Shown one piece after another: positions 12,113-36,134 of a DNA stretch of 64,000 nt (the stretch's first letter is position 1; each line of letters begins with the position of its first letter). A program made the translations under genes and the position numbers. Below the pieces are notes generated by a model. That model was not told where the DNA came from, ran no database searches, and saw only the letters and a list, made by a program, of their open reading frames with translations. This DNA is from Rhizobium sp. CF080 (GTDB lineage Bacteria > Pseudomonadota > Alphaproteobacteria > Rhizobiales > Rhizobiaceae), in the NCBI RefSeq assembly GCF_000282095.2, contig NZ_AKKC02000008.1, positions 310,001 through 374,000 on the forward strand, read 5' to 3'.

Positions 12113-12276
12113 TACTCCGAAATGAGTAGGCCGATAGCCCAAAGACTACGGCGAAACCATTGGCCGCTATGCGATTATCCTGCTGGGGGCGATGGTTTAA
12201 AGGCATGGAGCCTCCCCGTTTGAAGCGCCGATTGAAGGCTTGCGAGGATGGTTGATTGATATCGTTTCTGCCGATC

Positions 12277-13928: not shown

Positions 13929-13955
13929 TCCACTCACCCGTTGGAGGAGTTTGCC

Positions 13956-17085: not shown

Positions 17086-18525
17086 TCAATAGGCCTTGCC
17101 GAAATCGCAGACCTCGATCGCGGTGCGGACGATGATCTTCATGTCCAGCCAGAACGACCAGTTGTTGATGTACCAGAGGTCGTGGAATATCCGCTCTTCC
17201 ATCTTTTCGATATTTGGCGTCTCGCCGCGGCAATTGTTGACCTGGGCCCAACCTGTAAGGCCGGGTTTGACATGCCGTCTGAAGGCATATTTGGCGATCT
17301 GGGCGTCATAGAGTTCATCATGCGCGAGCGCATGCGGGCGGGGGCCGACGATCGACATTTCGCCTCGAAGGACGTTCCAGAATTGCGGCAACTCGTCGAT
17401 GCTCGCGGCGCGGATGATGGCCCCGACCCTCGTGACGCGAGGATCGTTCCGGGTTGCCTGGCGCACATCATCTGAGTCTTCCATGACGGTCATGCTGCGG
17501 AATTTCAGGATTCGGAACGAGCGGCCGCCATATCCTTTGCGGACCTGCCTGAACAGAACGGGACCTTTGGAATCGCATTTGATGGCGATCGCAACGACGA
17601 GCAACAGCGGAAACAGCGAAAGGATGGCCGTCAGCGAAAAGAGGATGTCGAATGCACGTTTGGTCCCGCGTTCATAAAGGCTCAACGGTGGCCGCTGCGT
17701 CTGGAACGCGGTCATGCTGCCGATCTTGCGGGCCGGGGCGCTGGTGAGCCGGCCGACGACACCATCGAAAATGACATTCACCGGCAAGGCGGAGCGCCTG
17801 AGTTCCCCGAGGTAGAATTCGAGATTGGAGACGTTCGGATCCCGCCAGACGATGAATACTTCATCTATGCTGCCGGTCTCGCTCTGCCTCAGTCTCTGAA
17901 GGGCGTTTGCGGGCAGCAGATTTTCATCCGACAGGCGTATGATCTGCGCGAGGGCCATGCCGCTCGCGGCAGCCTCATGCTGCCAATGGTCGGTAGAAAA
18001 CTCCTCGTGGCAGATCAGCAGTATCCGCTTCATCTTGAAGGAAGCCGCAGCTGCCGCCGACGGCAGATACCAGTGCCAGAACAGTCGGCTACAGATCAGC
18101 CCACATAGAGAGATGACAGCGGTCATCAAGATCGCCCCGCGCGAGAAGGTCGTGCCGATCTTCAGGAAGAAGATTACTGTCAGCAGGAACGCCAGGGCGC
18201 TGGGGATCAGAATGCAGATGAGCCGGATTTGCGGCCTCAGGAGCTGGATGTTCTCCGGGCTGTAGGCCTGAGCGCTGTGCATGGCGAGCACAAAGATCGT
18301 CGATAGAACCAGGCCGATCCCGATAAAGAGCGAGGGATCGGGGGCTGACCCGAAAACCACATATTGATAGCCCGTGAAGCCGACGCCGGCTGCTCCGAGA
18401 AGATAGAGGAAGTCCGCCGCGGCAGCCACATAGGCTATAACATGATACTCCAGACCTCCGCGTTGAGGCTTCTGCTCATATGATATGAAGTCAGTTCCTA
18501 TTTTTGGCTCGAACGGTGTGAACAT
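17086..18525 (-). CDS. Undecaprenyl-phosphate sugar phosphotransferase (initiating enzyme)
   Basis: A 479-residue polyprenyl-phosphate hexose-1-phosphate transferase of the WcaJ/EpsE/PssY type. Hydrophobic segments lie in the N-terminal 150 residues, followed by a CoA-binding-like middle domain. The catalytic domain starts at about residue 288 with KRAFDILFS, then a membrane hairpin, ILKFRSMTV, and the characteristic DELPQFWNVLRGEMSIVGPRP and KPGLTGWAQVN. It starts repeat-unit synthesis by moving hexose-1-phosphate from UDP-sugar to undecaprenyl phosphate. It is the only initiating enzyme found in the window. Glucose versus galactose cannot be decided from sequence. Confidence 0.93.
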   Translation of the reverse strand: MFTPFEPKIGTDFISYEQKPQRGGLEYHVIAYVAAAADFLYLLGAAGVGFTGYQYVVFGSAPDPSLFIGIGLVLSTIFVLAMHSAQAYSPENIQLLRPQIRLICILIPSALAFLLTVIFFLKIGTTFSRGAILMTAVISLCGLICSRLFWHWYLPSAAAAASFKMKRILLICHEEFSTDHWQHEAAASGMALAQIIRLSDENLLPANALQRLRQSETGSIDEVFIVWRDPNVSNLEFYLGELRRSALPVNVIFDGVVGRLTSAPARKIGSMTAFQTQRPPLSLYERGTKRAFDILFSLTAILSLFPLLLVVAIAIKCDSKGPVLFRQVRKGYGGRSFRILKFRSMTVMEDSDDVRQATRNDPRVTRVGAIIRAASIDELPQFWNVLRGEMSIVGPRPHALAHDELYDAQIAKYAFRRHVKPGLTGWAQVNNCRGETPNIEKMEERIFHDLWYINNWSFWLDMKIIVRTAIEVCDFGKAY

Positions 18526-20512: not shown

Positions 20513-21709
20513 TCAGTGAACCCTGTTTCGGTCGGTTCTGATCCAGGCCGCTCCGCCGATTTCGAGGATATGGCGCGGATAGAGCCTCAGCTTCCTGAAG
20601 ATATATGCCGGAACGTCTGCCAGTGTATGCAGGGGAAGCGTGCGCCTGCCATGGCGCCACCATGCCATCGAAAGCGCGGTGTCGAATGCCAGGATGCTGA
20701 TGGCCGAGACCACCAGCGGCGAGATCGCAATTCCGGCGGTGGCAAGAAGAACTGCCGGACACAATGCGAGCAGCAGAAGCGCTGCCAGCAATGTCAACGG
20801 CGGTATCAGTGCGTCGACGACCAGTGCCAGATAGGCACGGTTCCGGAAGGTGTTGATGTCGAGCAGAGTGGAGAGAAGGAAGGCCGTCAGTGCGAAGCGG
20901 CCTGCATCCCATCGGGAAGACTGTGTTTCGAGACCCTTCTTCGAATAGGGAAACCTGCTGCTGACCGCTGCGGCATCACAGAAAAGCGGAGCATAGCCGG
21001 CTTTCGCAAGGTCCAGTCCAAGTTTCATATCTTCAACCAGATTGCCGTTCGCAAGCGAAGCGTCCCGCAGAATGGCCCAGGGGAATGCCATCCCTGATCC
21101 GGTCAATTGCGCGGGAAGCCCGAGTTTCGCCAAGCCCAGAAGCCTGATCCGGTTTTTGAGAAGGAAAGCGAATTCGGACACGGCAAGATTGATGCTTGCG
21201 TCCGGCGGAGCGACCATCAGGTAGCGGGATTGCACAGGTCTGTTCGTTGCTGCGGCCATATGGGCGAGATTGTCGAGCGCTCCCGGTTCCAGCCAGCAAT
21301 CGGCATCGACGACGATGACGACATCCGGCGGCAGCAGGCTGAGATACCTGACGCCGGCATCGAGCGCGTATCCCTTGCCGCGGCGGACCGGATCATACCG
21401 TACAATGACATCTGCGCCCGCTTCGCGCGCCAGCGACGCGGTGAGATCGTTGCAATTGTCCGCCACGACGATCAGCCGGTCGCCCTCGCGCATCTGGCTT
21501 TGAATGCTCCGCAGGGTATCGACAATCTGGAGTTCTTCGTTATGTGCCGGAACAAGAACCGCGACTTGCGGCCGCCGCCCGTTCTGACGTCGCGGCGCCC
21601 CCCGCCCGCGGATGCTTCCGGCAAGACATTCGATCGTGAAGAAGACAGTTGGAATGAAAACAACAACGGACAATAGTAACGCTGCAGAGCTCAGTATGTC
21701 CTGTAGCAT
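20513..21709 (-). CDS. Membrane GT2 glycosyltransferase with QxxRW-type motif
   Basis: A 398-residue protein with one N-terminal membrane segment, a GT-A domain (VLVPAHNEE at about 52, VVDADCW at about 134, EDMKLGLDL at about 225, QSSRW at about 264) and three to four hydrophobic segments from about residue 270 to 350. The QxxRW box and flanking membrane helices are features of cellulose-synthase-superfamily or BcsA/NdvB-like enzymes, though it is shorter. It may therefore transfer or polymerise sugar at the membrane. It converges with the oxidoreductase gene, with 42 nt between them. Confidence 0.83.
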   Translation of the reverse strand: MLQDILSSAALLLSVVVFIPTVFFTIECLAGSIRGRGAPRRQNGRRPQVAVLVPAHNEELQIVDTLRSIQSQMREGDRLIVVADNCNDLTASLAREAGADVIVRYDPVRRGKGYALDAGVRYLSLLPPDVVIVVDADCWLEPGALDNLAHMAAATNRPVQSRYLMVAPPDASINLAVSEFAFLLKNRIRLLGLAKLGLPAQLTGSGMAFPWAILRDASLANGNLVEDMKLGLDLAKAGYAPLFCDAAAVSSRFPYSKKGLETQSSRWDAGRFALTAFLLSTLLDINTFRNRAYLALVVDALIPPLTLLAALLLLALCPAVLLATAGIAISPLVVSAISILAFDTALSMAWWRHGRRTLPLHTLADVPAYIFRKLRLYPRHILEIGGAAWIRTDRNRVH

Positions 21710-22110: not shown

Positions 22111-22761
22111 TCAGCGGATGATCATGCCGGCGACGACATATCCTTCGCGCAGCCGGATCTGCCCCACAAGCCGGTCACCGGTCTTGAAGGGCGGGACGTC
22201 GATCTCGAAATAGGCGGCGAAGTGCCCATCCGCCAGGTTCAGCTCGATGCGAATGGCCTCGAAGCCGAATATGGTTCGCGTCAGGCCGTACTGGCACTTG
22301 TAGGTGCATTCTTTGGCACTGAAGATCGCTTTCACCAACTGGCCCCGAATGCCCCATCGTTGTCGATTGAGCCACTGCCGCTCGCGGGGCGTACAGATTT
22401 CCTGTGCATAGGTATCGTCGAGCGGCGACGCTTCCTCCAGATCGAGGCCGAGCGCCTTGATGCCGTCCGAATGGCGGCCGATGGCTGCGACGCAGCGGGT
22501 GGTGGAGTGACTGATGCTGCCGGCGATACCGTCCGGCCAGATCGGGGCGCGGTCCGATCCCACCGGTATGGCCATGTGCGGCAGGCCCAGATGGGCCATG
22601 GCCTGCCTGGCGCAGGCGCGCCCGGCGGTGAACTCCTGCTGCCGGCTCTTCACCGCATTGACGATGGCGCTTCTCTCTTCGGGATAAAGCTTCGAGACAT
22701 CGCCGAGAAGGTCGGACTCGGCGACCGAAACGGAAGGGTCGAATAGGCCCTCTAGCAGCAT
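22111..22761 (-). CDS. 4'-phosphopantetheinyl transferase, Sfp/EntD type
   Basis: A 216-residue enzyme that transfers phosphopantetheine from coenzyme A to carrier-protein serines. Diagnostic blocks are GRACARQAM, the RAPIWPDGIAGSISHS stretch, the metal-binding LGLDLEE, and FSAKECTYKCQYG. These match the EntD branch. It starts 3 nt after the NRPS stop on the same strand, so it is co-transcribed with it. Its targets should be the NRPS carrier and the PKS carrier, and perhaps the free carrier protein at 15590. Confidence 0.92.
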   Translation of the reverse strand: MLLEGLFDPSVSVAESDLLGDVSKLYPEERSAIVNAVKSRQQEFTAGRACARQAMAHLGLPHMAIPVGSDRAPIWPDGIAGSISHSTTRCVAAIGRHSDGIKALGLDLEEASPLDDTYAQEICTPRERQWLNRQRWGIRGQLVKAIFSAKECTYKCQYGLTRTIFGFEAIRIELNLADGHFAAYFEIDVPPFKTGDRLVGQIRLREGYVVAGMIIR

Positions 22762-22764
22762 CGG

Positions 22765-25700
22765 CTAGACCTTCGTCTCCACGCGGACCAGCGTCGGTCG
22801 CCGTTCCATCGCGTTGCGGCGCAAGGCGGCGCGCTCGGACGCCCGGCTCAACTGGATCTCGGCTTTCCCCTTGCCGGAAATATGGTCCGCAAGAAGAGCG
22901 ACAGTCGGGAAACGGAAGAGGTCGGTGATCGTCAGATCCGGTGCCAGCTTCGCCTTCATCTCGCGATGGACCTGGACCGCCAATAGCGAATGCCCCCCAA
23001 GCGCGAAGAAGTTGTCGAATATGCCGACCTTGTCGATACCAAGCGCGCGGGCGAATACCTCGCTGATGTCCCGCTGGAGATTGCTGGATGGCTCGATGAA
23101 CGTCGCCGGCGGCGCCTGGACCTTTTCCATCGGGGCCGGCAGCTTGTTGCGGTCCACCTTGGCGTTGGGTGTCAGAGGGAACGCCTCCATCGTCACGAAA
23201 TGCGATGGTATCATCGCATCGGGCAGAGCCTCGGCGACATAAGCCCGCAGCTCCTGTTCGCAGATGGTGGTACCGTCGGTGCGGATATAGGCCACCAGGC
23301 GCACGTCGCCGGGATTGTCCTTGCGCGCGACCACGACGGCTTCGCGGATGCCGGCGAATGTGCCGATCCGCGCCTCGATCTCGCCGAGCTCGATGCGATG
23401 GCCGCGGATCTTGACCTGATGATCGGTGCGGCCGAGGAAATGCAGGACGCCGTTCCGGTCGAAGCGTGCAAGGTCGCCGGTCCGATAGATCCGGCCCTCC
23501 ATGAACGGGTTGGGCAGGAAGCGTTCGCGGGTGAGCTGTTCGCGGTTGTGATATCCGCGGGCAACGCCGTCGCCACCGATATAAAGTTCGCCGACATCGC
23601 CGGGTGGCACCGGATTGTTGGCGTTGTCGAGCACATAGAGCTGGGTGTTGGCGATCGGATGGCCGATCGGCACGACGCCCGTCGATGGGCCGGCCGTGAA
23701 GGTCGAAGACCAGATCGTCGTTTCCGTCGGGCCATACATGTTCTCGATCGTCGCATCGGTGACGGTTCGCAAGGCTGCAAGAAGCGAGCCCTGCAGCGCC
23801 TCGCCGCCCAGGAAGAGATGCCGGACGTCGCTCAGAGCGGCGCGATCCTCGTCGATCATCATGAACATGCGGGCCATCGAGGGCGTGCATTGGAGATGAG
23901 TGACGCGGTGTTTGCGGATCTCCTCGGCAAAACCGTCTCCGGTTTCTTCGCTGACGGGGTTCTTGCTCGTCTTGACCACTTCGGCCAGCAGTGGAAGTCT
24001 TTCCAGGACGATATCGTCGGCCAGGCCGAAATCGATGAGGCAGGCAATGTCGTCGACGCCGGCCGCCTTGACCTGATCCAGCCTTTCCAGCGCATCCTCG
24101 ATCGTGCCGAACAAGCCGCTGTCTTCGAAATAGCGCAGGAACGCGAATTCCAGGATGGCATCCATCTCGTCTGGCGCGAGCGACTGGAGGTCGATATCCA
24201 TCGGCTGGGCGATGCCCTGCGGTTTCTTGAATGCCGGAAACGCCCAGGCGTATTGCTTGATGAGGGCAGCCGCGCTGCGCAGGTATTCCTTCATCGGGCC
24301 GCGTGCCAGATCCCGCACCTCGTTGCGGTCTTCACCGATCAGCGTATGCAGCATCAACGTGACTTTATAATCAGCCGGATCGCGGCCGGTTTCGGCAAGC
24401 GTCTGCCTGTAGATGCGGATCTTTTCCGCAAGTTCGTCGACCGACTGGCCGAGCAAGTGGGTCAGCACGTTGGCGCCGAGCCGAGCGGCTTCCCGATAGC
24501 TTTCCGGATTGCCGGCGGTGGTCAGCCAGACAGGGAGTTCCTTCTGGACCGGCCGCGGCTGGGTCACGACCGCGACTGTGCCGGTGCCGAAGTCGAAATC
24601 GACGCTCTCGCCGCGCCACAATTTGCGGACGACCTCGATATCGCGGGTCAGGCTCGCCTTGTTCTTCGGCGGCGCGTTTTCCGGCCGGAGCACGAAGTCT
24701 TCGGGCATCCAGCCGGAGGCGAAGGCGAGGGCGACGCGACCGTTGCTGAGATTGTCGATAATCGCCCATTCCTCGGCGACACGCGCGGGATGATGAAGCG
24801 GCAGAACGCAGCTGCCAGCCCGGATCGAAAGGTTCTTGGTGACCGCGGCGACGGCTGCGCCGGTGACCGCCGGGTTCGGATAGGGACCACCGAACGCGTG
24901 GAAATGGCGCTCCGGCGTCCAGACGGAATCGAAGCCGTTCGCATCGGCAAATTTCGCGCCTTCGATCAGCAGCCGATATTTGTCCGGACCGGATCCGCCG
25001 TCATTACCCCAGTAGAAGAGGCCGAAATCCAGATTGGTACCTCTCCCGGCGGAAGACATGCCCTTCGCCTTGGCCTCGATGACTTCCGACGAATGGACGA
25101 CGACCTTGAAGCCGCGGGCAAGCGTCCAGAAGAGTTCGAGAACCGAGATATCGAAGGAAAGGCTGGTGACCGCCAGCCAGACATTGCGACGATCCGCGGT
25201 GTTCGGCACCCGTTCGTCCATGCCGGCGAAAAAATTCACGACGTTGCGATGCTCCAGCATCACGCCCTTCGGAAGGCCGGTGGAGCCCGACGTATAGATG
25301 ACATAGGCGAGGTTGGCGGAAGTCACGTCGCTTGTTGGCCGGTCCGCTGTAGCCTGATTTCTCAGGATATCCTCGACACACAGGAAGTTGGTACCATCGA
25401 GCGTCTCGGATTTTGCCAGCCGCCGCTCCGTCAGGACCAGTTTGGCACCGCTGTCCTTGATCATGAACGCAAGGCGATCGGCCGGGAAATGCGGGTCGAG
25501 CGGAATATAGGCTCCGCCCGCCTTCATGATCGCAAGCGCGCCGACGACCAGGTCGAGCGAACGTGGCAGGTAGAGGCCGACGGTGACGTCCGGGCCGACG
25601 CCCTGGCTCACGAGCGCCTGTGCGATGCGGTTCGCCCGCTCGTCCATTTCGCGATAGGAGAGGGAGCGGCCGTGGAATGCCAGAGCTTCCGCATCCGGTG

Positions 25701-27384
25701 TCCGATCGACCTGCCGCTCGATAAGCTGGTGGACGCAGGCGGCCGTTTCGTATGGGCGCTCTGTCCGGTTCCAGTCGAAGAGGACCATGTTCCTGTCCGC
25801 ATTCGACATCAGGGGCAGGTCCTGCAGCAGCGTCGTGCGGTCTTCGAAGGCGGAGGCAAGTATCGCAAATGCCGTCGCCAGATCCTGCGCCTGCCGCTCA
25901 TCAATGCGTGCCCGGTCGTAGATGAGGTCGCCCCCGGTTTCTCCGAGCCGGAAGGTCAGGGCGCAACCATCGATCCCGTCGGCGAGCGCCGGATTGGAAA
26001 TGTCAGCGACGCCGATCGTCAGCTGGGGCGCTGCAAGGCCGGGATACCTGTCCGCAAGATCGCGGCAATATCCCTGGCGCTCGTCCAGCGCTTTCAACGA
26101 ACGATCGACATGCCCGAGCAGGTCATCAACCGAGACTTGCCCCGTGGCGTCGATCCGCAGGGGAATGGATTTCGCGAAATAACCGGGATGGCGGGCACCG
26201 AGGTCCGCCATCCTGTCGTTGGCATAAGCGAGGTCGAATGTCGGTTGACCGGAAAGACGGATCAGGAAGGCGGCCGTCAGGGCGACGCGCTCCCGCCCGG
26301 AAAGCTGTCCGGAAAGGAGCAGCGGGATGCTGCGAATGTCCGGCATTTGGCCGGCTTCGGGTGCTTTCACATAGGGTAGTGCGATATCGGTGCAGGTTTC
26401 GAGCGCGCGGCGAAAGAAGCCTTCATGCCGCGCAAGGGCGGAAATTGCCTGCGACAGTGTGTCCTTTTCCAGGCCGTTCATCAGCGGCAGCCGGTCGCCG
26501 GGACGCAGCACCGAGGAAAGGGCGATCTGCCTGACGCCATCCTTGCGGACGGCTTCGAGCAGAACCGGCATGTCTGCGGTGCCGACCGTCACGCCATGGG
26601 CGCCCACCGACAGGACGAGGCCTGGTTCACCGTTCAGTTCGCCGTCGAGGACGCGAAGGTTCCTGACGGTGAAGACGTGATTGCCGAACCGGACCTTGGG
26701 CGTTGCTAGCGGGTTGAGATAGGTCGGGCCGAAATCCAGGCCGCGCACCAGGCGCGAAAGCTCGCTTGCCGAGGCGGTGAAATCGAGCGTGCCAGCGGCC
26801 GCGGGGCGCTTGAGTTGTTCGTAGTAGGTGCGGGTTGCGAAATCCTGGCGGCGCGGGTTCAAGGTGCCGCGCTCGATATCGCCGAGCATGTCGGAGAAGG
26901 TCGCGATCCCGGCCTCGAAACATTTCGTATTCAGCGTCAGGGCGGTCTCGTCCGCGTCGATCTCGAAACGCTGCTGCACGTAGATATCGCCTTCGTCGAT
27001 CCCTCCGGTGATCGCGTGCCAGGTGACGCCGTGCCGATTATGGCCCTCGAGGATGGCCCAGGCGGGTGTGTTGAGGCCGGCCATGTCCGGCAGCAAGCCG
27101 TCATGGAAATTGGCGGCGCCGATGCGCGCATGCTGCCAAACCGGGTCGGGTACCATTTTCAGATTGGCGATGCTGAAGAGCCAGTCGTAATCGTATCGGG
27201 TCAGCTTGCCGGCGTAGTCGCCCTCGGGTGCCATGACCGGAATCTCGTGGGCCTCTGCCCAGTTTCGGACCGATCCGTTCGACGTCGCTATGGCCTGGAT
27301 CCTATGTCCCCGCCCTCGCAGAATTTCAGCGCATTGAACCAGCAATAATCCGCCACCGATCAAAACACACTTCAATTCGCCCAT
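22765..27384 (-). CDS. Single-module NRPS: formyltransferase - partial C - A (monooxygenase insert) - PCP
   Basis: The ATG at 27384 (1,539 aa) is preferred over the GTG at 27399 because GGGGA lies about 8 nt upstream. Residues 1-300 are a methionyl-tRNA-formyltransferase-like domain with N92, H94 (ANFHDGLLP) and the catalytic-type aspartate in GGIDEGD. Residues of about 375-530 resemble only the C-terminal lobe of a condensation domain; no HHxxxDG was found. The adenylation domain follows (YTSGSTGLPKG, SFDISVLELFW, YGPTETTIW, YRTGDLARF, NAKVDRNKLP). It is interrupted between its A4 and A5 motifs by a luciferase-like monooxygenase. A carrier (LGGHSLLAV) ends the module, with no thioesterase. 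The pocket reads D-I-L-Q-F-G-M-I-W, close to the glycine code I remember. The chain probably passes to the divergent PKS. Confidence 0.93.
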   Translation of the reverse strand: MGELKCVLIGGGLLLVQCAEILRGRGHRIQAIATSNGSVRNWAEAHEIPVMAPEGDYAGKLTRYDYDWLFSIANLKMVPDPVWQHARIGAANFHDGLLPDMAGLNTPAWAILEGHNRHGVTWHAITGGIDEGDIYVQQRFEIDADETALTLNTKCFEAGIATFSDMLGDIERGTLNPRRQDFATRTYYEQLKRPAAAGTLDFTASASELSRLVRGLDFGPTYLNPLATPKVRFGNHVFTVRNLRVLDGELNGEPGLVLSVGAHGVTVGTADMPVLLEAVRKDGVRQIALSSVLRPGDRLPLMNGLEKDTLSQAISALARHEGFFRRALETCTDIALPYVKAPEAGQMPDIRSIPLLLSGQLSGRERVALTAAFLIRLSGQPTFDLAYANDRMADLGARHPGYFAKSIPLRIDATGQVSVDDLLGHVDRSLKALDERQGYCRDLADRYPGLAAPQLTIGVADISNPALADGIDGCALTFRLGETGGDLIYDRARIDERQAQDLATAFAILASAFEDRTTLLQDLPLMSNADRNMVLFDWNRTERPYETAACVHQLIERQVDRTPDAEALAFHGRSLSYREMDERANRIAQALVSQGVGPDVTVGLYLPRSLDLVVGALAIMKAGGAYIPLDPHFPADRLAFMIKDSGAKLVLTERRLAKSETLDGTNFLCVEDILRNQATADRPTSDVTSANLAYVIYTSGSTGLPKGVMLEHRNVVNFFAGMDERVPNTADRRNVWLAVTSLSFDISVLELFWTLARGFKVVVHSSEVIEAKAKGMSSAGRGTNLDFGLFYWGNDGGSGPDKYRLLIEGAKFADANGFDSVWTPERHFHAFGGPYPNPAVTGAAVAAVTKNLSIRAGSCVLPLHHPARVAEEWAIIDNLSNGRVALAFASGWMPEDFVLRPENAPPKNKASLTRDIEVVRKLWRGESVDFDFGTGTVAVVTQPRPVQKELPVWLTTAGNPESYREAARLGANVLTHLLGQSVDELAEKIRIYRQTLAETGRDPADYKVTLMLHTLIGEDRNEVRDLARGPMKEYLRSAAALIKQYAWAFPAFKKPQGIAQPMDIDLQSLAPDEMDAILEFAFLRYFEDSGLFGTIEDALERLDQVKAAGVDDIACLIDFGLADDIVLERLPLLAEVVKTSKNPVSEETGDGFAEEIRKHRVTHLQCTPSMARMFMMIDEDRAALSDVRHLFLGGEALQGSLLAALRTVTDATIENMYGPTETTIWSSTFTAGPSTGVVPIGHPIANTQLYVLDNANNPVPPGDVGELYIGGDGVARGYHNREQLTRERFLPNPFMEGRIYRTGDLARFDRNGVLHFLGRTDHQVKIRGHRIELGEIEARIGTFAGIREAVVVARKDNPGDVRLVAYIRTDGTTICEQELRAYVAEALPDAMIPSHFVTMEAFPLTPNAKVDRNKLPAPMEKVQAPPATFIEPSSNLQRDISEVFARALGIDKVGIFDNFFALGGHSLLAVQVHREMKAKLAPDLTITDLFRFPTVALLADHISGKGKAEIQLSRASERAALRRNAMERRPTLVRVETKV
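23965..25040 (-). other. Luciferase-like FMN monooxygenase domain inserted in the adenylation domain
   Basis: About 358 residues from TNLDFGLFYWG to AEVVKTSKNP separate the A4 motif (SFDISVLELFW) from A5 (THLQCTPSMARMF). Features of bacterial luciferase-like flavin monooxygenases are present: ANGFDSVWTPERHFH, SIRAGSCVLPLHHPARVAEEW, GRVALAFASGW and LPVWLTTAGNPES. The family I recall is the MupA/Atu3671 natural-product type. The myxothiazol enzyme MtaG carries a related insertion at the same place in a glycine adenylation domain, where it is proposed to alpha-hydroxylate carrier-bound glycine. Confidence 0.88.
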
Positions 27385-27635
27385 AAAGCTTGTCCCCACT
27401 CGTTGCTGTTCCAGGCACTTCGATAGAAACGGGGGGCGGTGTAAAACTCAACATGCGCCGGGCCACCCATGAGGATGATCGCGCCTAAGCCTGAATCGCA
27501 GGCCGTACCCGTCGCTCCCCCATACGGATGATGATGGCTTCCAAAGGAGTAATTGCGATTGCCTCCGGGCTGGAAGCACATTGAACCTGCGGGTTTGCGC
27601 TCGCGGATTTCAATGGGAAGCGGAACGAGGCTCAT
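27372..27635 (-). CDS. Possible small His-containing ORF ahead of the NRPS (87 aa)
   Basis: An ATG-started frame reading MSLVPLPIEIRERKPAGSMC, then a Gly/His/Tyr-rich stretch with SFGSHHHPYGG, and ending 13 nt inside the NRPS start in another frame. Roughly 60 per cent of its third positions are G or C, lower than in neighbouring genes, and no ribosome site precedes the ATG. It could be an upstream leader peptide whose translation overlaps and couples to the NRPS, or chance. No family was recognised. Confidence 0.25.
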   Translation of the reverse strand: MSLVPLPIEIRERKPAGSMCFQPGGNRNYSFGSHHHPYGGATGTACDSGLGAIILMGGPAHVEFYTAPRFYRSAWNSNEWGQALWAN

Positions 27636-27687
27636 GGCTCATTGGGGTGATGTCAGGGGCTGACCTCCGCCGGTTAGGGCGGTGTCG
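27385..27687. promoter_or_regulatory. Divergent region between NRPS and PKS
   Basis: This 303-nt stretch should contain back-to-back promoters for the NRPS-phosphopantetheinyl transferase operon and the PKS. No clear operator repeat was seen. A reverse 87-codon ORF, listed separately, fills most of it. Confidence 0.4.
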
Positions 27688-30600
27688 ATGCTTGAGGGGT
27701 CCAACCAGGTCTGTGCCAGCGATATTGCAATCGTCGGCATGGCTTTGAGAGTGCCGGGTGCGCGTAATGTCGCGGAATTCTGGCAAAACCTGCGTGACGG
27801 TGTGGAATCGGTCCGCACGTTTTCACCGGAAGACCTGATCGCCGAAGGCGAAGATCCCGAGCGGCTCCACCATCCCAATTACGTTCCCCGCGGCGCCGAC
27901 CTGCCCGATATGGAAATGTTCGACGCGGAGTTCTTCGGCCTAAACCCGAAGGAGGCGGCGATCATGGATCCCCAGCACCGCCATTTCCTGGAATGTGCCT
28001 GGGAAGCCATGGAGGATGCCGGCCGGACGCCGAACAATCAGCCCGGCCCGGTCGGGATCTTTGCCGGCTGCGGCATGGGGAGCTATTTCTACTTCAACGT
28101 CTGCAGCAACCGCAACCTGGTCGACCAGGTGGGCATGTTCCTGTTGCGCCACACGGGCAACGACAAGGATTTTCTGGCGACGCGCGCCTCGTTTACGTTC
28201 GACCTGCGCGGCCCGAGCGTCAACGTGCAGACCGCCTGCTCCACGTCGCTGGTCGCGGTCCATTACGCCTGCCAGAGCCTGATTTCCGGGGAGTGCGACA
28301 TGGCGCTTGCGGGCGGCGTGACGATCGAGTTCCCGCATCGCCGCGGATACACGTTCCAGGAGGGCGAGATCCTTTCGCCTGACGGGCACTGCCGGCCCTT
28401 CGATCATCGTGCGGCCGGGACCATTTTCGGCAGCGGCGTCGGGGTGGTCGTGCTTCGCCGGCTTTCGGATGCGTTGCGCGATGGCGATGTGATCCATGCG
28501 GTGATCAAGGGCACGGCCGTCAACAACGACGGCAGCAGCAAGGCGGGTTATCTCGCGCCGAGCGTCAGTGGGCAGGCCGAGGCGGTTCTCGAGGCTCAAG
28601 GGCTCGCAGGCGTCGATGCCGACACTATTCAATATGTCGAGTGCCATGGCACCGGCACGTTCCTGGGCGACCCGATCGAGATCGAGGCGCTGACGGCGGC
28701 CTTCAGGCAGAGCACCGACCGGACCGGCTTCTGTCATGTGGGATCCGTCAAATCGAATATCGGCCATCTCGATACGGCAGCCGGCGTCGTCGGTCTCATC
28801 AAGGCGACGCTTGCCGTCAACGAGGGCGAGATTCCGCCGACGCTCGGCTTCGAGCGCCCCAATCCGTCGATCGATTTCGAAAGAAGCCCGTTCCGGGTCA
28901 ACAACAAGCTGGTGAAATGGCCGCATGCGCCCGGCCCTCGCCGGGCGGCGGTCAACTCGCTCGGCGTCGGCGGTACCAATGCGCATGCGATCATCGAGCA
29001 GGCGCCGACCCGCTACGTGCCCGATGCGACTGAGGGCGACGCGCAGACTGGTGCCGATTCCGATCCCATGCTGCTGTTTCTGTCGGCCCGTCAGCGCAAG
29101 ACGATCGACCAGGCGGCCGAGCGGCTCGGATTGGCGATGTCTGCCCAGCCAGGTCTTTCGCTCGATGACGTCAGCTATACGCTGCAGCATGGCCGCAAGC
29201 ATTTCGACCATCGCATGGTACTGGCTGTCCGCAGCCGGGAGGACGCCGTCACCGCGCTTGCCAATCCCGGCAGCCGCGGCTTTGTCCATCAGCACGTCCC
29301 GAACAATGCGGGCGCCATTTTCCTGTTTCCCGGCGGGGGTGCCCAGTATGTCGGCATGGCGAAACGGCTCTACGAAGAGGACCGGACATTCCGGCGGATC
29401 GTCGAGGAAGGGCTTTCCCATCTGCCGGTCGATGCGGCGAAGGAGATCCGCGCGACCTGGCTGGACGAAAATTCCGCCGCGGCTGCAAAAACCTTTCTCC
29501 GTCCCTCGCTCCAGCTTCCGGCCATTCTGATCACCGAGGTCGGCCTTGCGCGTCTCTGGATGGATTGGGGCGTGAAGCCGAAGGCGTTGATCGGTCACTC
29601 CATGGGCGAAAACACCGCGGCCTGCATTGCCGGGGTGATGTCCTTCAGGGATGCCGTCAATCTCGTGCACCTGCGTGGAAAACTGTTCGAGACGATCCGG
29701 CCGAGCGGCATGATGAGTGTGCCGCTCGATCACGACAAGCTTTCCGAACTCCTGCCGACATCGCTCGACATCGCTTCGGTGAATGCGCCGTCGCTTTGCG
29801 TCGTGTCGGGCCTCAATGAGGATCTCGACCTCTTCCGGGAATTCCTGGCGAGGCAAGGTATTGATGCGACGCGTGTGCCGATCAACATCGCTGCCCATTC
29901 GCGGCTGGTCACGCCCATCCTGAAAGCATTCGAGGCCTTTTTGCGCGACATTACTCTCCGCGCCCCGGCAATTCCGATCCTATCGAACCGTACGGGCTTG
30001 CCCCTGAGCGCCGAAGAGGCGACCGATCCGATGTATTGGGTCGGTCACCTTCGTTCGACCGTTTATTTCGCGAACGGCATGGCGGCGCTTTCGACGGAAC
30101 CGGGACGTATCTACATTGAAGTGGGTCCCGGGCGTGTTCTGTCGTCACTGACGAAGGCGCAGGGGTCGATCCCCGCAAACCAGGTGATCAACAGCCTGCC
30201 GCATCCCGACGAGACTGGCGACGACCGGCTTTATTTCCTCTCTGCCGTCGGGCGTGCCTGGGCGACCGGCCTCGATGTCGATATCGACCGTCTCTGGCAG
30301 GGCCGTTCGCCGCGTCGGGTCAGGCTGCCGGCCTATCCGTTCCAGCACAAGCGCTTCTTCATCGATCTCGCCGGAGCGAACGAAAAAGGCAAAAACGCCG
30401 AACCCGTCCTTTCGAAGGAACCCGACATTGCACGCTGGGGCTATCGCCCTTCCTGGAAACAGACGCTGGCCGATTATGAAATCGGTGGGGAGAAAGAAGC
30501 GCAATCCTGGCTTTTCTTCCTCGACGAGACCGGGGCCGGACAGAAGCTGGTCGATGCGCTGAGGAACGTGGGGCATCGTGTCGTCACGGTCTCCTTGGGC

Positions 30601-33600
30601 GACGCCTTCATTCGCCGCAGCGCCGAGGACTATATGCTCTGCCCGGAATTGGGCCGCGCCGGATATGATGCCCTCGTCGCCGGACTTGTCGGCGATGGCG
30701 GCCTGCCGTCGCGCATCGTGCATATGTGGCTGCTGACGCAGGCGGAAACCTTCCGACCGGGCTCGAATTTCTTCCATCGAAACCAGGAATGCGGTTTCGA
30801 CAGCATGCTGCATCTCGCCCAGGCGCTGGGTGATGCAGCCAGCGTTCCGGAAATGCATTTCACCGTCATCAGCAATGGCATGCAGCAGGTCTCGGGCGAG
30901 CCCTTGCCCTATCCCGAAAAGGCGACCGTTCTGGGCCCCGGACTGGTGCTGCCGAAGGAGATGGCCGGCGCGACGGTCAGGGTGATCGATATCGATCTGC
31001 CGCCCGAGGCCGAGCGGCATGGCAAACGTTTCGCCTTGACCCGTGTGACGGGGCGGAGTGAGAAAAAGAATGCCGCAGAACCGGCGGCGTTGATCGAGCA
31101 GCTCTGGGAAGATCTGCATGCGACGCCGGGATCGGAAATCGTCGCATACCGCAAGGGGCGGCGCTGGTCGCAAGTTCATCAACGGATGCCATTGAAAGAC
31201 GTATCACCCGAGCAGGCGAAACTACGCCAGGGCGGTGTCTACTTCTTCTCCGGCGGCTTGAGCGACGTCGCTTTGGCACTTGCCGACGAGCTCGCCGGCC
31301 AGTTCCGCGCGCGGATCGTACTTGTGGGCCGCCTTGTCCTGCCGCCGCGAGCCGAGTGGGCGTTCTACGATCGCACCCACGGCCATGACGGCGTCCGGCG
31401 GGCGATCTCGGCGATCCGGAGGCTCGAAGACAGGGGCGCGGAAGTTCTTTACCTCATCGGCGATGTCGGCAATCCGGAGCAGATGAGCCGGGCGGTGGAG
31501 ACGTCGCTTTCCCGCTTCGGGGAGATCAACGGCGTCCTCCATGCGGCCGGCACGGTCGATGACGGCCTGATCCAGACCAAGACACGCGATAGCATCGACA
31601 GGGTTCTGACGCCGAAAGTACTCGGCACCACCGTGCTGGATGCAGCTTTCGAAACCGTGGCGCTCGATTTCTTCCTGATGTTTTCCTCCACCAGCACCGA
31701 CGTGGTGCGGGCAGGGCAGGTCGATTACGTCGCCGCCAACGCCTATCTCAACGCCTTCGCGCAGAGCCGTTCGCATCGCACCGACCGAGCCACCGTCGCG
31801 CTGCATTGGGGCGTCTGGAACGGGGTCGGCCTGGCGGCACGAGCGCTCGGCAATTCCGGAGATGACGACTGGATCACGCCCGTTGCCGGACCGGCGGTGG
31901 GTCCCTTTTTCCAGAACTGGAAAGAGGATGAGACCGGACTGCCGTGGCTCGAGGCCCTGGTCAGCCCTGAGACGGAATGGATGCTCGACGAACATCGGCT
32001 TCTCTCCGGCCAGGCGGTCATGCCGGGCACCGGCTATCTGGAACTGATTACCCAAGCGTCTCGGGAATACGGACTTCCGTTCGAAGCGGAAGTGGCGGAC
32101 CTCGTATTCCTGAGACCGCTTGTCTTTAACGACGGAGAGACGAAAGCCGTTCGTATCCGGCTGGAGCCGGTTGCGGAACATTTTCGCGTCGTCGTTCTGG
32201 CAGGCCCGGCGGACGGCGAGGATGCGCTGTTCGTCAAGCACGCCGAAGCTGTCCTCAAGCCACAACCGCAACGGAGGCGCGAGACCGTCGATATCGCTGC
32301 TACCGCCTCTGCATGCGATGAGACGCGGGTTGCCGGAGGCGGCAGCGCGCTTCGTGCGGTCCAGGAGAAACACATCCGCTTCGGCCCTCGCTGGGCGGTT
32401 CTGCGCTCCATGGCGATCGGAAACGGCAAGGCGATTGCAGAACTGAAATTGGATCCATCGTTTGCCGACGATCTGGCGAAAGGCGTTCTGCTGCATCCTG
32501 GCCTGCTCGACATAGCGACGGGCTTTGCCATGGAACTCGCCAAGGACTATGACGCCGAGACGTCGCTTTGGGCTCCGGCAACCTATGGCCGGGTGGTCCT
32601 TCATAAACCGCTGCCGGCGGAAGTCGTCAGTATCGTCAGGCTCGCCGACAGCAGCGATTTTGGCGAGGGTTATGCGGCCTTCGACGTTACGATCACCGAT
32701 CCTTACGGCAATGTTGTCTTCGAAGCCGAGAAATTCGTCATGCGCCGGCTGGAAAACGATCTTGCGCTCGGTGTCGCATCCCAAGCGGATGCGCCGGCTG
32801 CCGCCAAAGCGAAGCAGGCCGCCCTTTCTCCGGCGATGTTGAAGCTGGGCACCCAGGTGCGCAACGGCATCCTCCCGGCGGAAGGCTTCTCGGCGCTGCA
32901 ACGTGCGCTCGCCACATCCGAACCTCAGCCGATCATCAGTTCGATCGATCTCGAGACGCTGCGGGAATGGATTGCTGCCTCTGCCGAAACCGCGACGCCC
33001 TCCGGCGACAATTTCGAGAGGCCGGACCTCGAGAACGAGTTCGTCGAGCCGCGCAATCCGGTCGAGGAAACGCTGGCCGGTTACTGGCGGGAGCTCCTCG
33101 GCATTGCCAAGGTTGGCATCCACGACAGCTTCTTCGACATGGGCGGGCATTCGCTGATTGCGGTTCGCCTGTTCCGGATGATCAAGAAGCAATATGCGCT
33201 CGACCTGCCGATCTCGACGCTGTTCGAGGCGCCGACCATTGCCCAATGTGCCGAGCGGATCGCCGCCGAACTGCCGGATGGTGGGGAAGCCGCAGGGTCC
33301 GAAACCAAGGCGAATGCGCCGACGACGACGGCAAAGCCGGTTCATCTGGTGCTGATGAATCCGGGCAAGGACGCCAAGGCGGTGCCGCTGTTCATCTGCG
33401 CCGGGATGTTCGGCAATATCCTGAACCTGCGCCATCTGGCGATGACCATGGGGGCGGACAGGCCGGTCTATGGATTGCAGGCACGCGGACTTTACGGCGA
33501 CCACGAGCCGCATGCGACTTTCGAGGAAATGGCGCTCGATTACATCGCCGAAATCCGCTCGGTGCAGCCGAATGGTCCCTATCTCCTCGCCGGATATTCG

Positions 33601-34239
33601 GGCGGCGGCATAACCGCCTATGAGATGGCCCGGCAACTTCAGGAGGCGGGAGAAGAGGTTTCCCATGTGGTGATGCTGGACACGCCTCTGCCGCGGCAGC
33701 CGGGGCTGGATCTACGGGATCGTGTCAGCATGAAACTCCAGGATATCCGCCGTCACAAGGCCAATTACCTTGCCAAGTATCTCCAGGACCGTCTGCGCGA
33801 CAGGATGGACGGCCGCGCCAAGCAGGAGGCCGAGCACCAGGTAGGCTCGACAGAGCATTTCAACAACGAGAGAATAGAAGTGGCGTTCAGGCGTGCGGCT
33901 CATCAATACCAGGTGAAGCCATATGCGGGGGCGGTCACCCTGTTCCGGCCGAAGCCGGCCGTGTTCTACCGGCTTAGCGGCGGCCGCTGCCTCAAGGAGA
34001 ACCGCGACATTCTGCTGCTCGACAACGGCTGGACCGAGCATGTCACGCAGCTCACCGTTTCGGAGGTGCCGGGAGATCACGACAGCATGGTGCTCGACCC
34101 TTATGTTCGCGTGCTCGCCGAACGCATGCGCGCCGTCGTTGCCGAGGCCGTGGAAAAGCGGAGGCTTCAGGAAGCCGGATCGGCACAACTGGTTCAGAGG
34201 ACATCCGCCGCCTTGAACCCGGTCATCGAGCTTGCGTAA
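27688..34239 (+). CDS. Type I PKS: KS-AT-KR-DH-ACP-TE
   Basis: The ATG at 27688 follows AGGGCGG and gives 2,183 residues. KS: residues 11-430 with C184 in QTACSTSL and both histidines (VECHGTGT, NIGHLDTAAG). AT: about 540-830 with S638 in GHSMGEN. KR: about 930-1400, with S1333/S1334, Y1347 and a PKVLG lysine. Its nucleotide loop, however, reads GGLSDVA (1189-1195) instead of GGxGxxG. DH: about 1425-1690, with H1436 and D1608 (HPGLLD). ACP: S1822 in MGGHSL. TE: S1971 in GYSGGG. DH following KR is not the usual order. The PKS should extend the aminoacyl unit from the divergent NRPS by one two-carbon unit and release it. Chain hand-off between the two is inferred from adjacency. Confidence 0.93.
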   Translation: MLEGSNQVCASDIAIVGMALRVPGARNVAEFWQNLRDGVESVRTFSPEDLIAEGEDPERLHHPNYVPRGADLPDMEMFDAEFFGLNPKEAAIMDPQHRHFLECAWEAMEDAGRTPNNQPGPVGIFAGCGMGSYFYFNVCSNRNLVDQVGMFLLRHTGNDKDFLATRASFTFDLRGPSVNVQTACSTSLVAVHYACQSLISGECDMALAGGVTIEFPHRRGYTFQEGEILSPDGHCRPFDHRAAGTIFGSGVGVVVLRRLSDALRDGDVIHAVIKGTAVNNDGSSKAGYLAPSVSGQAEAVLEAQGLAGVDADTIQYVECHGTGTFLGDPIEIEALTAAFRQSTDRTGFCHVGSVKSNIGHLDTAAGVVGLIKATLAVNEGEIPPTLGFERPNPSIDFERSPFRVNNKLVKWPHAPGPRRAAVNSLGVGGTNAHAIIEQAPTRYVPDATEGDAQTGADSDPMLLFLSARQRKTIDQAAERLGLAMSAQPGLSLDDVSYTLQHGRKHFDHRMVLAVRSREDAVTALANPGSRGFVHQHVPNNAGAIFLFPGGGAQYVGMAKRLYEEDRTFRRIVEEGLSHLPVDAAKEIRATWLDENSAAAAKTFLRPSLQLPAILITEVGLARLWMDWGVKPKALIGHSMGENTAACIAGVMSFRDAVNLVHLRGKLFETIRPSGMMSVPLDHDKLSELLPTSLDIASVNAPSLCVVSGLNEDLDLFREFLARQGIDATRVPINIAAHSRLVTPILKAFEAFLRDITLRAPAIPILSNRTGLPLSAEEATDPMYWVGHLRSTVYFANGMAALSTEPGRIYIEVGPGRVLSSLTKAQGSIPANQVINSLPHPDETGDDRLYFLSAVGRAWATGLDVDIDRLWQGRSPRRVRLPAYPFQHKRFFIDLAGANEKGKNAEPVLSKEPDIARWGYRPSWKQTLADYEIGGEKEAQSWLFFLDETGAGQKLVDALRNVGHRVVTVSLGDAFIRRSAEDYMLCPELGRAGYDALVAGLVGDGGLPSRIVHMWLLTQAETFRPGSNFFHRNQECGFDSMLHLAQALGDAASVPEMHFTVISNGMQQVSGEPLPYPEKATVLGPGLVLPKEMAGATVRVIDIDLPPEAERHGKRFALTRVTGRSEKKNAAEPAALIEQLWEDLHATPGSEIVAYRKGRRWSQVHQRMPLKDVSPEQAKLRQGGVYFFSGGLSDVALALADELAGQFRARIVLVGRLVLPPRAEWAFYDRTHGHDGVRRAISAIRRLEDRGAEVLYLIGDVGNPEQMSRAVETSLSRFGEINGVLHAAGTVDDGLIQTKTRDSIDRVLTPKVLGTTVLDAAFETVALDFFLMFSSTSTDVVRAGQVDYVAANAYLNAFAQSRSHRTDRATVALHWGVWNGVGLAARALGNSGDDDWITPVAGPAVGPFFQNWKEDETGLPWLEALVSPETEWMLDEHRLLSGQAVMPGTGYLELITQASREYGLPFEAEVADLVFLRPLVFNDGETKAVRIRLEPVAEHFRVVVLAGPADGEDALFVKHAEAVLKPQPQRRRETVDIAATASACDETRVAGGGSALRAVQEKHIRFGPRWAVLRSMAIGNGKAIAELKLDPSFADDLAKGVLLHPGLLDIATGFAMELAKDYDAETSLWAPATYGRVVLHKPLPAEVVSIVRLADSSDFGEGYAAFDVTITDPYGNVVFEAEKFVMRRLENDLALGVASQADAPAAAKAKQAALSPAMLKLGTQVRNGILPAEGFSALQRALATSEPQPIISSIDLETLREWIAASAETATPSGDNFERPDLENEFVEPRNPVEETLAGYWRELLGIAKVGIHDSFFDMGGHSLIAVRLFRMIKKQYALDLPISTLFEAPTIAQCAERIAAELPDGGEAAGSETKANAPTTTAKPVHLVLMNPGKDAKAVPLFICAGMFGNILNLRHLAMTMGADRPVYGLQARGLYGDHEPHATFEEMALDYIAEIRSVQPNGPYLLAGYSGGGITAYEMARQLQEAGEEVSHVVMLDTPLPRQPGLDLRDRVSMKLQDIRRHKANYLAKYLQDRLRDRMDGRAKQEAEHQVGSTEHFNNERIEVAFRRAAHQYQVKPYAGAVTLFRPKPAVFYRLSGGRCLKENRDILLLDNGWTEHVTQLTVSEVPGDHDSMVLDPYVRVLAERMRAVVAEAVEKRRLQEAGSAQLVQRTSAALNPVIELA

Positions 34240-34371: not shown

Positions 34372-35823
34372 GTGGCTGAAGCAACTATTTCTCCCGATTG
34401 GGATGGAAAACCCTCCGGCCCTGCAGACGTGCTCGTATCGTCCACCGCTCCGGCAGAGGCGAAGCCGCGTTTCCGCAAAGTCATCATGCGGGCTGCCGGC
34501 TGGTCGATGATGGGCTATGTCCTGTTGCAGGTGCTGCGCATCGCCAGCAGCCTTATCCTGACGCGCCTGTTGATCCCGGAAATGTTCGGTATCATGGCGG
34601 TTGCCACGATGGTTCAGGTTTCGGTCTCTATGCTCTCCGACCTCGGCCTCAGGCCGGCGGCTATCCAGAGCCGGATGGGAGACGAGCAATCCTATCTCGA
34701 TACCGCCTGGACGCTGCAGATCCTGCATGGATGCCTGATCTGGTTTGCCTGTGTACTGGTGGCGATCGGGATCGGGCGCGCAGCCCATTACGGTCTGTTT
34801 CCCGCCGGGTCGGTCTATACGGTTCCCGAGCTTCCCGCGATCATCATGGCACTGTCGTTCTGCACGGTCATCATGGGCCTGCAATCGACGAAACTGATCT
34901 CCGCCTTCCGGCATCTCAATCTCGGGCGGCTGACGATCATCGAGATCGCGGCACAAGTGATCAGCCTCACCGTCGCGGTCCTGCTCGCCTGGAATACGGG
35001 TTCAATCTGGTCTTTCGTCGTCTCGACATTTGTATCCTGCATCGTGACCACAATTCTCAGCCATGTGTGGCTCCCCGGCGTCAACAACAGCTTTTCCTGG
35101 GAGAAGGAGGCGGTCCGGGATCTCATCCGTTTCGGCCGGTGGATCATGCTGTCGTCGATCCTGACGGTGGTCGCGGCAAGTGGGGATCGTGTCTTTCTTG
35201 CCGGTTGGACGAGCCCGATGATGCTCGGCCTTTATAGCCTGGCCTTCAATCTCATCGCGATGCTGGAGGGCGCCGGCGGGCGGCTTTTTTCAACTGTTGC
35301 GATGCCGGCACTCAGCAAGGTCGCGCGGGAACGGCCCGATCAGCTGCGCGTCATGTTTCTGAAAATTCGCCTTCCCTTCGATCTTGTGTTCATAGGAAGC
35401 GCCGGGGCGATCTTCGCGGGCGGCAAAGCGATCATCGAATTTCTCTATGACGATCGTTATCTGGACGCGGCACCGATCATCCAGATCCTGTCCTTCAGCC
35501 TTCTGACCACGCGTTTCAGTTCGCTGTCGGCGATCTACCTTGCCGTCAACGAGCCCAGAAACCAGACCATCCTGAATTTTGTCCGGGCGATCTCGATTTT
35601 CGTCTGCATCCCGCTCGCTTATTATATGTTCGGATTTTACGGTGCGCTGTGGGCGATCGCGCTTTACGGGCTGCCGGTTTTTGCTGTCATATTCTATTTC
35701 AATCGGCGCCACGGCCTCCACAGCCTGCCTTATGAAGTCGGTGTCCTGCTGGCCTGGCCTATCGGCTTTCTGGCCGGAACCGTCGCGACGATGGTTTTCG
35801 AGCGCGTCGGCAGCATGTTTTGA
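34372..35823 (+). CDS. Wzx-like MOP-family polysaccharide flippase
   Basis: A 483-residue membrane protein with about 12-14 hydrophobic segments. The GTG at 34372 has AAGGAG 6-7 nt upstream. A Pro/Ala-rich cytoplasmic leader of about 35 residues comes first. The motif LTRLLIPEMFGIMAVA after the first segment is typical of Wzx/RfbX flippases. It should move the undecaprenyl-linked repeat unit to the periplasmic face for the Wzy-like polymerase (1779-3353). It lies 132 nt downstream of the PKS on the same strand, so read-through is possible. Confidence 0.88.
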   Translation: MAEATISPDWDGKPSGPADVLVSSTAPAEAKPRFRKVIMRAAGWSMMGYVLLQVLRIASSLILTRLLIPEMFGIMAVATMVQVSVSMLSDLGLRPAAIQSRMGDEQSYLDTAWTLQILHGCLIWFACVLVAIGIGRAAHYGLFPAGSVYTVPELPAIIMALSFCTVIMGLQSTKLISAFRHLNLGRLTIIEIAAQVISLTVAVLLAWNTGSIWSFVVSTFVSCIVTTILSHVWLPGVNNSFSWEKEAVRDLIRFGRWIMLSSILTVVAASGDRVFLAGWTSPMMLGLYSLAFNLIAMLEGAGGRLFSTVAMPALSKVARERPDQLRVMFLKIRLPFDLVFIGSAGAIFAGGKAIIEFLYDDRYLDAAPIIQILSFSLLTTRFSSLSAIYLAVNEPRNQTILNFVRAISIFVCIPLAYYMFGFYGALWAIALYGLPVFAVIFYFNRRHGLHSLPYEVGVLLAWPIGFLAGTVATMVFERVGSMF

Positions 35824-36134
35824 TCCAATCCAAATCAACAAGCCTTCCATCCTCAGCCGAGCGGAGGTGATGGAAGATTCCATCCTACCCCTAAAGCGGT
35901 AACGTTCTCCCACTTCCGATAGATTGATGAAGAGGGGAGCCCGAAATAATATTCATCATCAAAAGATACTTATGGCGGCTGGTGAGTAACGATTGGTCAA
36001 CCGTCATATTAATGTGATTTCATCAATTCTGTCTGGAAATACTCCATGTGCGAAAACATAAATTTGTTGAACGTTCCGGACGTGGCCGGATTTTGCCATC
36101 GGATGGTCCGCATCCAGAACAGAGAGTTTTGCCG
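35824..36134. other. Intergenic region upstream of GT4
   Basis: This 311-nt gap is partly AT-rich at 35935-36050. An imperfect inverted repeat around 35846-35872 (CCATCCTC then GGAGGTGATGG) might form a weak hairpin after the flippase gene, but there is no T-tract. A GTG-started extension of the GT4 frame reaches back to 36048. Confidence 0.35.

Follow-up and report, generated by a model that had tools for sequence, protein, structure and literature searches.

A formyltransferase-led NRPS with an embedded monooxygenase beside a one-module PKS in a candidate exopolysaccharide cluster of Rhizobium sp. CF080

The window analysed is a 64,000-nucleotide stretch of the Rhizobium sp. CF080 genome (contig NZ_AKKC02000008.1, positions 310,001 to 374,000), and the gene in question encodes a nonribosomal peptide synthetase (NRPS) that begins with a formyltransferase (FT) domain and is divergent from a one-module polyketide synthase (PKS) gene. 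The NRPS reading frame (27399..22765, minus strand) opens at a GTG, and an in-frame ATG at 27384 gives the 1539-residue protein numbered here (22765..27384, minus strand); the GTG start is also possible. The protein was read as FT, the C-terminal lobe of a condensation (C) domain, the N part of an adenylation (A) domain, a luciferase-like flavin monooxygenase (LLM; MOX below), the C part of the A domain and a peptidyl carrier domain (PCP). This order, proposed in an earlier sequence-only reading, was borne out by hmmscan, which returned Formyl_trans_N, Formyl_trans_C, a split AMP-binding match with TIGR04020 in the gap, AMP-binding_C and a carrier domain, and by profiles built from the family.

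The FT-led NRPS and its partner genes

The FT domain (residues ~9–305; 26485..27375, minus strand) carries N97, H99 and D135, which we take to be its catalytic residues. Conservation was followed in an alignment of 91 rows including the reference (reading frames of >900 aa and >800 bits, window duplicates left out), where specificity-code positions and motif residues were placed by motif anchoring. The three residues were present in 89, 90 and 89 rows, the remainder being gaps and never substitutions; they are intact, as first read, and a degenerate FT was ruled out. An AlphaFold2 model made with the family alignment gave the FT fold at high confidence. Among solved structures the family profile matched ArnA best (120 bits, positions 25–299), then, through its FT part, methionyl-tRNA formyltransferase (FMT, 108 bits), both above LgrA (74 bits), and several sugar formyltransferases have the same fold by structure comparison, so the domain could formylate an amino sugar nucleotide of an exopolysaccharide (EPS) rather than carrier-bound glycine. 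We hold this to be the least probable of the alternatives considered, and highly improbable in itself: the FT is fused to a glycine-type A–PCP module even in a basal clade where EPS genes are scarce or absent (below), and LgrA, cited in the excerpt seen of PMC4504003, is a precedent for formylating a carrier-bound amino acid.

Residues ~357–548 (25756..26331, minus strand) matched residues 251–469 of the McyB condensation domain by family profile (52.7 bits, E 3e-13); the protein therefore has the C-terminal lobe alone, as had been claimed. This lobe was hardly detectable from the window sequence alone (best E 0.014), and the VIA-align list for residues 310–556 was filled by one domain and is silent on it. 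A search of the NRPS protein for HHxxxD found none; the N-lobe with HHxxxDG is missing and the protein does not have the complete C domain of an MtaG-like module.

The N part of the A domain runs to motif A4 (25075..25734, minus strand; code residues D750, I751 and L754) and the C part follows at 23137..23940 (minus strand; Q1170, F1196, G1198, M1221, I1229, W1230 and K1414). Between FDIS (750) and YGPTE (1222), that is between A4 and A5, lies the MOX (residues 792–1141; 23977..25026, minus strand), which matched TIGR04020 (the MupA/Atu3671 family of LLMs) with 471.6 bits over 350 residues against a curated cut-off of 244.45; the MtaG-like insertion noticed at first is thus real. A second AlphaFold2 model (pTM 0.54 only), in which the adenylation fold resumes past the monooxygenase, agrees with this domain reading. 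The window's code, DILQFGMIWK, is Gly-type, and DILQxGM[I/V]WK was found in all 86 rows that reach the second half of the A domain (2 end before the final K), with F, M, L, Y, H or A at the variable position 299. Since the code is Gly-type and fixed across the family, glycine can be proposed as the amino acid. The carrier serine (Ser1471 in the PCP, 22879..23070, minus strand) was kept in 83 of the 83 rows that reach it.

Searched against proteins, the first 520 residues of the NRPS gave 297 relatives at E ≤ 1e-3; among the 120 matches listed, most were ~1520–1570 aa long with formyltransferase, AMP-binding, luciferase and carrier domains. A whole-genome scan across 84,980 species found at least 572 encoding stretches, and the best 80 of these, kept as named loci, came from Rhizobiales, Rhodobacterales, Hydrogenophaga, one metagenome-assembled genome (MAG) each of a myxobacterium, a deltaproteobacterium and a gammaproteobacterium, Salinivenus, and an Anaerolineaceae MAG. 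The same single reading frame is carried by independent genomes, which rules out an assembly join as the source of the insertion. In the relative on a Deinococcus plasmid (L015:14947-20270) the FT part is annotated as its own reading frame ahead of the A(MOX)–PCP part. Within the window's own family the NRPS is patchy, since 18 of 247 genomes matched at E ≤ 1e-60 (own included), 2 of them only partly similar. Within the genus, G431 and G524 hold all of the NRPS, the EpsE and flippase genes described below, and the PKS (~3900 bits), and in G588 neither the NRPS profile nor EpsE nor the flippase found a counterpart at the limits used, the best PKS match reaching 455 bits; this pattern, drawn from four genomes only, is consistent with gain or loss as a block.

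The partner gene (27682..34239, plus strand) encodes a type I PKS of 2185 aa whose single module reads ketosynthase (KS), acyltransferase (AT), ketoreductase (KR), dehydratase (DH), acyl carrier protein (ACP) and thioesterase (TE). In a PKS alignment of 77 rows including the reference (reading frames of >1500 aa and >1000 bits, window duplicates left out) the KS Cys/His/His and the AT Ser were kept in 77/77, the DH His in 76 and Asp in 75, the ACP Ser in 74, and the TE Ser, Asp and His in 73, 73 and 71, one row having Gly at the TE Ser. A 4'-phosphopantetheinyl transferase (PPTase) gene lies 3 bases downstream of the NRPS gene (22111..22761, minus strand). The PPTase was detected in 64 and the PKS in 71 of the 80 named loci. 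In 69 loci both synthase genes could be assigned: 35 carry the PKS, a GT2 glycosyltransferase and the NRPS in that order on a single strand, and 24 share the window's divergent layout.

The polysaccharide cluster and its recurrence in relatives

Between 1.8 and 37.5 kb the window has the appearance of a Wzx/Wzy EPS cluster, its polymerase and chain-length protein being assigned by similarity only. This setting, absent from the sequence-only reading, is the most informative fact about the locus, and the tie to polysaccharide genes is its strongest point for a specialist. Between 1779 and 37541 were found a WcaJ/EPS-type undecaprenyl-phosphate sugar transferase to initiate the repeat (17086..18525, minus strand), a Wzx-type flippase (34372..35823, plus), a Poly_export/SLBB polysaccharide export protein (9265..10563, minus), a chain-length determinant-like protein (7724..9211, minus; TIGR03007, 117 bits, under its cut-off) and an O-antigen ligase/polymerase-like membrane protein (1779..3353, plus; 555 bits to a Shinella O-antigen ligase family protein). 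Its many glycosyltransferases include a GT4 enzyme, EpsE (10763..12112, plus; 551 bits, cut-off 400), a GT61-family enzyme (12256..13302, plus), a GT2 enzyme (20513..21709, minus; EpsU-like) and a second GT4 enzyme (36048..37541, plus; EpsH-like), the last two under the cut-offs of their models.

Inside the same cluster (13941-17061, plus strand) is a second thiotemplate-like set resembling exosortase-A systems. It comprises a stand-alone adenylating enzyme (TIGR03098-like, 534 bits, under its cut-off), a PLP decarboxylase (TIGR03099-like, under its cut-off) and, at ~15590-15823, a small protein that resembles a carrier and contains GLLDSVS. A GMC oxidoreductase gene (18869-20470, plus strand) adjoins the cluster; similar GMC genes, often with an SDR gene, recur in EPS clusters of Ruegeria, Paracoccus and others. 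A Paracoccus EPS cluster (L012:2775-6653) holds a separate C–A–PCP–TE NRPS besides the FT–MOX module and the PKS.

Polysaccharide genes were counted by searching the reading frames of all loci with the polysaccharide proteins of the window and of annotated plasmids. At least two were found in 62/67 named loci of ≥17 kb (64/80 of all named loci), against 0 of 20 arbitrary 20-kb stretches (10 from the window's genome, 10 from other member genomes) and 0 of 18 stretches taken from or beside other alphaproteobacterial NRPSs, with the limit that queries drawn from member clusters may undercount control stretches whose glycosyltransferases are very different. A strict recount (operon GT2 labels excluded, ≥100 bits) left at least one gene in 63/67 and at least two in 56/67. 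The two control sets rule out a chance neighbourhood. Gene order varied by lineage with the polysaccharide neighbours retained, and annotated plasmids of Shinella, Aminobacter, Ruegeria, Paracoccus and Deinococcus showed a similar setting. The Aliiroseovarius NRPS gene is outside such a cluster, with glycosyltransferase genes ≥15 kb off; the Methylobacterium bullatum record is unannotated and gave three weak polysaccharide matches of 33-48 bits. In the family sample, where up to 20 kb each side was read for 18 copies in 17 other genomes, 12 of 13 EPS-type copies (one genome contributing two that score equally) had at least three polysaccharide genes; the others were three basal-type copies without polysaccharide genes and two that were only partly similar. 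A midpoint-rooted NRPS tree (90 rows, >1350 aa and >1000 bits, no support values given) set apart a basal clade (L013, L014, L054, L077, L146 and L150) with little or no polysaccharide company.

By a modest margin over even, we favour the reading that the NRPS is the loading module of a two-protein NRPS–PKS line serving EPS synthesis, which would supply a C4 acyl group to the EPS; the absence of any Condensation match at E ≤ 1e-40 from the window's own genome is counted for it as well. Several observations weigh against it, to be taken with the choice of queries mentioned above. The 80 named loci are the best-scoring of at least 572 and lean to the window's own clade; nine of them are without a visible PKS. 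In a class-wide sample, where a first profile matched 130/385 class genomes and 11 places in 10 genomes (own included) reached ≥267 bits, most of the listed matches span only ~positions 1–300, and we take these to be ordinary formyltransferases; the member loci from 9 of the 10 genomes (the own genome excluded, and a single place taken of the two in G235) had at least two polysaccharide genes in 3/9 and at least one in 5/9, three of the nine being on short contigs or only partly similar. The complete loci L146 and L150 of the basal clade have one weak or no polysaccharide gene, and L148, of the EPS clade, has only one in 20 kb. In the family sample G558, cut by a contig end, had no polysaccharide gene in 22.5 kb though its PKS is EPS-type, and among the 12 linked copies G595 had no PKS in its flank, and G532 and G534 had PKS matches there that were cut or weak. 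The glycine code was read via motif anchoring. The window's KR motif reads SGGLSDVA (PKS residues 1188-1197), in most of the family T-GGxG; because this nucleotide-binding motif is degenerate, ketoreduction is doubtful in the window strain and may be lost in its lineage. The TE could merely release a free acid, and we know of no metabolite, mutant or EPS structure. The basal clade explains part of the weaker class-wide result, and the two together show that the EPS link characterises one large clade and does not extend to all FT–MOX modules.

The pair might instead make a diffusible metabolite (a signal, chelator or weapon), the EPS genes being mere neighbours or serving to glycosylate or export it. 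The basal clade (to which G438, G502 and G529 belong by score) carries this loading module in the company of few EPS genes or none, the PKS of L013 runs on into C–A–PCP–TE, which would add an amino acid, and TE domains commonly hydrolyse or cyclise. The main clade, however, keeps its polysaccharide neighbours across Rhizobiaceae, Rhodobacterales, Methylobacterium, Hydrogenophaga and a myxobacterial MAG in differing gene orders, the linkage contrasts with 0/38 control stretches, and a GT2 gene sits between PKS and NRPS in 35 loci; we regard a diffusible product as possible and rather unlikely.

In the basal clade itself, a two-gene set read in L013 (L013:20001-33740) consists of FT–A(MOX)–PCP and KS–AT–KR–DH–ACP–C–A–PCP–TE; G438, G502 and G529 have an open frame of 3115-3174 aa and no EPS genes were found in their flanks. 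This basal set likely makes a free metabolite that has not been described.

Relation to known modules

MtaG-type C–A(MOX)–PCP modules belong to the myxothiazol and melithiazol lines; N-acyl-glycyl-PCP, formed by their C domain, is hydroxylated by the MOX, in MtaG at the glycine alpha-carbon, and dealkylation follows. The window protein likewise has a monooxygenase inside a Gly-type A domain, a likeness drawn without comparison to the MtaG sequence itself, and differs from that type in having the FT for the C N-lobe, in being non-terminal and feeding a PKS, and in having no TE in cis. Three relatives that have no FT, on two Streptomyces plasmids and in Nostoc (C052), retain an entire C domain including HHxxxDG and show the same junction, with the insert after A4 (codes DMVQLGMVWK, DILQVGMIWK and DILQMGMIWK). 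The ancestor was probably a glycine-specific C–A(MOX)–PCP module of the MtaG kind, and the simplest history would be that the FT took the place of the C-domain N-lobe in such a module, the C-terminal lobe being kept as a platform. As FT and full C domain would both N-acylate carrier-bound glycine, the MOX would still meet an N-acylglycine.

In the sections seen of PMC12283262, a survey of A-domain codes that also mentions fabrubactin, the four Gly-activating A domains with a MOX share DILQLGMIWK and all of its MOX modules are in Gly domains; its introduction puts such inserts between A8 and A9, whereas the window insert sits between A4 and A5. There the MOX carries out a 'beta-hydroxylation' (the paper's word) followed by backbone cleavage to a terminal amide. 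The window module might run this full reaction, formamide being expelled and the KS extending glyoxylyl-S-PCP, so that the formyl group would be a temporary N-acyl handle; the FT does occupy the former site of the C-domain N-lobe. In the cases described, however, cleavage terminates the line with an amide and here a KS follows, and formyl-folate spent only to be lost seems wasteful, so that we judge this course improbable. Alpha-hydroxylation by a TIGR04020 enzyme has also been proposed for palmerolide (PMC8739492, partial text), and the ichizinone cluster includes an LLM gene (PMC12144821, partial text). The OX domain of PuwE (PDB 6ket) is an LLM like the window's (348 bits, 45% identity in the structure match) in a different enzyme.

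Formylating loading modules are known from two sides. The linear gramicidin initiation module LgrA uses an amino acid other than glycine. It follows the same FT–A–PCP logic and its solved structures match the FT and A parts; it has no MOX, and the window FT scores nearer to ArnA and FMT. The CongA, OzmO and PtxE modules of conglobatin, oxazolomycin and phthoxazolin share FT–A(Gly)–PCP loading with the window protein, glycine formylation and hand-over to a KS being proposed for them (PMC4504003 and PMC5764310, to the extent these texts were available), so that FT-led glycine loading in front of a PKS is not new, and in this respect the sequence-only reading was incomplete. The passages at hand describe no MOX insert or half C domain for them, and give them a cyclodehydratase partner and free polyketide products. 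By the same loading logic the window pair could make an oxazole or other heterocyclic starter, N-formylglycine undergoing malonate extension and then cyclodehydration. A motif search for SGGKDS, which marks the proposed ATP-pyrophosphatase-type cyclodehydratases OzmP/CongE/PtxD, found no reading frame with it in the 93 member loci (6168 reading frames), whose flanks mostly extend just 10 kb, so that a gene farther away may exist; a MOX is not mentioned for the CongA, OzmO and PtxE loading modules in the same passages, and KR and DH would act on the ketone needed for the ring. A heterocycle is accordingly a very unlikely outcome.

In its way of working the window protein resembles a formylating loading module coupled to an MtaG-type MOX module, and it is a full member of neither class, because it is without a complete C domain and no oxazole-line cyclodehydratase was found nearby (0/93 loci). 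The openly licensed literature, which leaves most subscription journals outside, gave no title or abstract start on this fusion or on an NRPS–PKS within EPS clusters, and no characterised product for the combination was found there, in keeping with the sequence-only reading; the identical architecture is unmatched in openly licensed papers only. Roseobacter PKS/NRPS genes and polysaccharide genes are both mentioned, unlinked, in the parts seen of PMC4062626 and PMC11225332. Each part is known; assembled as FT–half C–A(MOX)–PCP beside a one-module PKS within EPS clusters, they turned up in none of the titles and abstract starts of the openly licensed papers.

A proposed route to an EPS substituent

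Returning to the loading-module reading, the PPTase would arm the carriers, the A domain would load glycine, and the FT with formyl-tetrahydrofolate would give N-formylglycyl-S-PCP. The MOX, with FMNH2 and O2, would then oxidise the alpha-carbon to N-formyl-alpha-hydroxyglycyl-S-PCP, which may persist or shed formamide to leave glyoxylyl-S-PCP. An N-formylated, alpha-oxidised aminoacyl thioester had been predicted as the outcome of this chemistry; it would stand as the starter unit only, given the conserved one-module PKS with a TE adjacent. The PKS would add one C2 unit with KR/DH processing, and the TE would transfer the resulting C4 acyl group onto a repeat-unit sugar of the EPS or free it for attachment. 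The first half of this route is suggested by the conserved residues, the code and the precedents of LgrA, CongA, OzmO, PtxE and the Gly-MOX modules. We infer the last half, acyl transfer to an EPS precursor with a glycan as acceptor, from gene company. Carrier-protein systems that aminoacylate surface glycans include DltA-C (teichoic acids) and AlmEFG (glycine on lipid A), in which adenylation and carrier proteins supply an amino acid to an envelope polymer; they are offered as a precedent for the way of working with no homology claimed, have no PKS, FT or MOX, and use a dedicated acyltransferase whereas a TE is proposed in the window.

Extended to the family, the proposal would be that a widespread NRPS–PKS class makes a non-sugar acyl substituent for exopolysaccharides, glycine being N-formylated instead of entering a peptide bond, oxidised, extended once and transferred by the TE; we put this broader statement forward tentatively, at somewhat below an even chance. 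Were the formamide lost en route, the glycan would carry an unsaturated aldehyde through which the slime layer could be cross-linked. Free natural products are the usual aim when thiotemplate enzymes are mined; a conserved pair in EPS clusters of alpha- and betaproteobacteria, of a myxobacterial MAG and on a Deinococcus plasmid would imply that some of this 'cryptic' biosynthetic potential goes into decorating biofilm polymers. Such a role would also account for a fusion that recurs and is often labelled merely 'MupA/Atu3671 family luciferase-like monooxygenase', and would offer a testable case of a formyltransferase replacing one condensation-domain lobe.

Farther along the window, a reading frame of 5693 aa (44102-61183, plus strand) holds four DUF5801 stretches in its first 1966 residues and is followed by an outer membrane efflux protein gene (61573-63054); it is perhaps a giant secreted adhesin.

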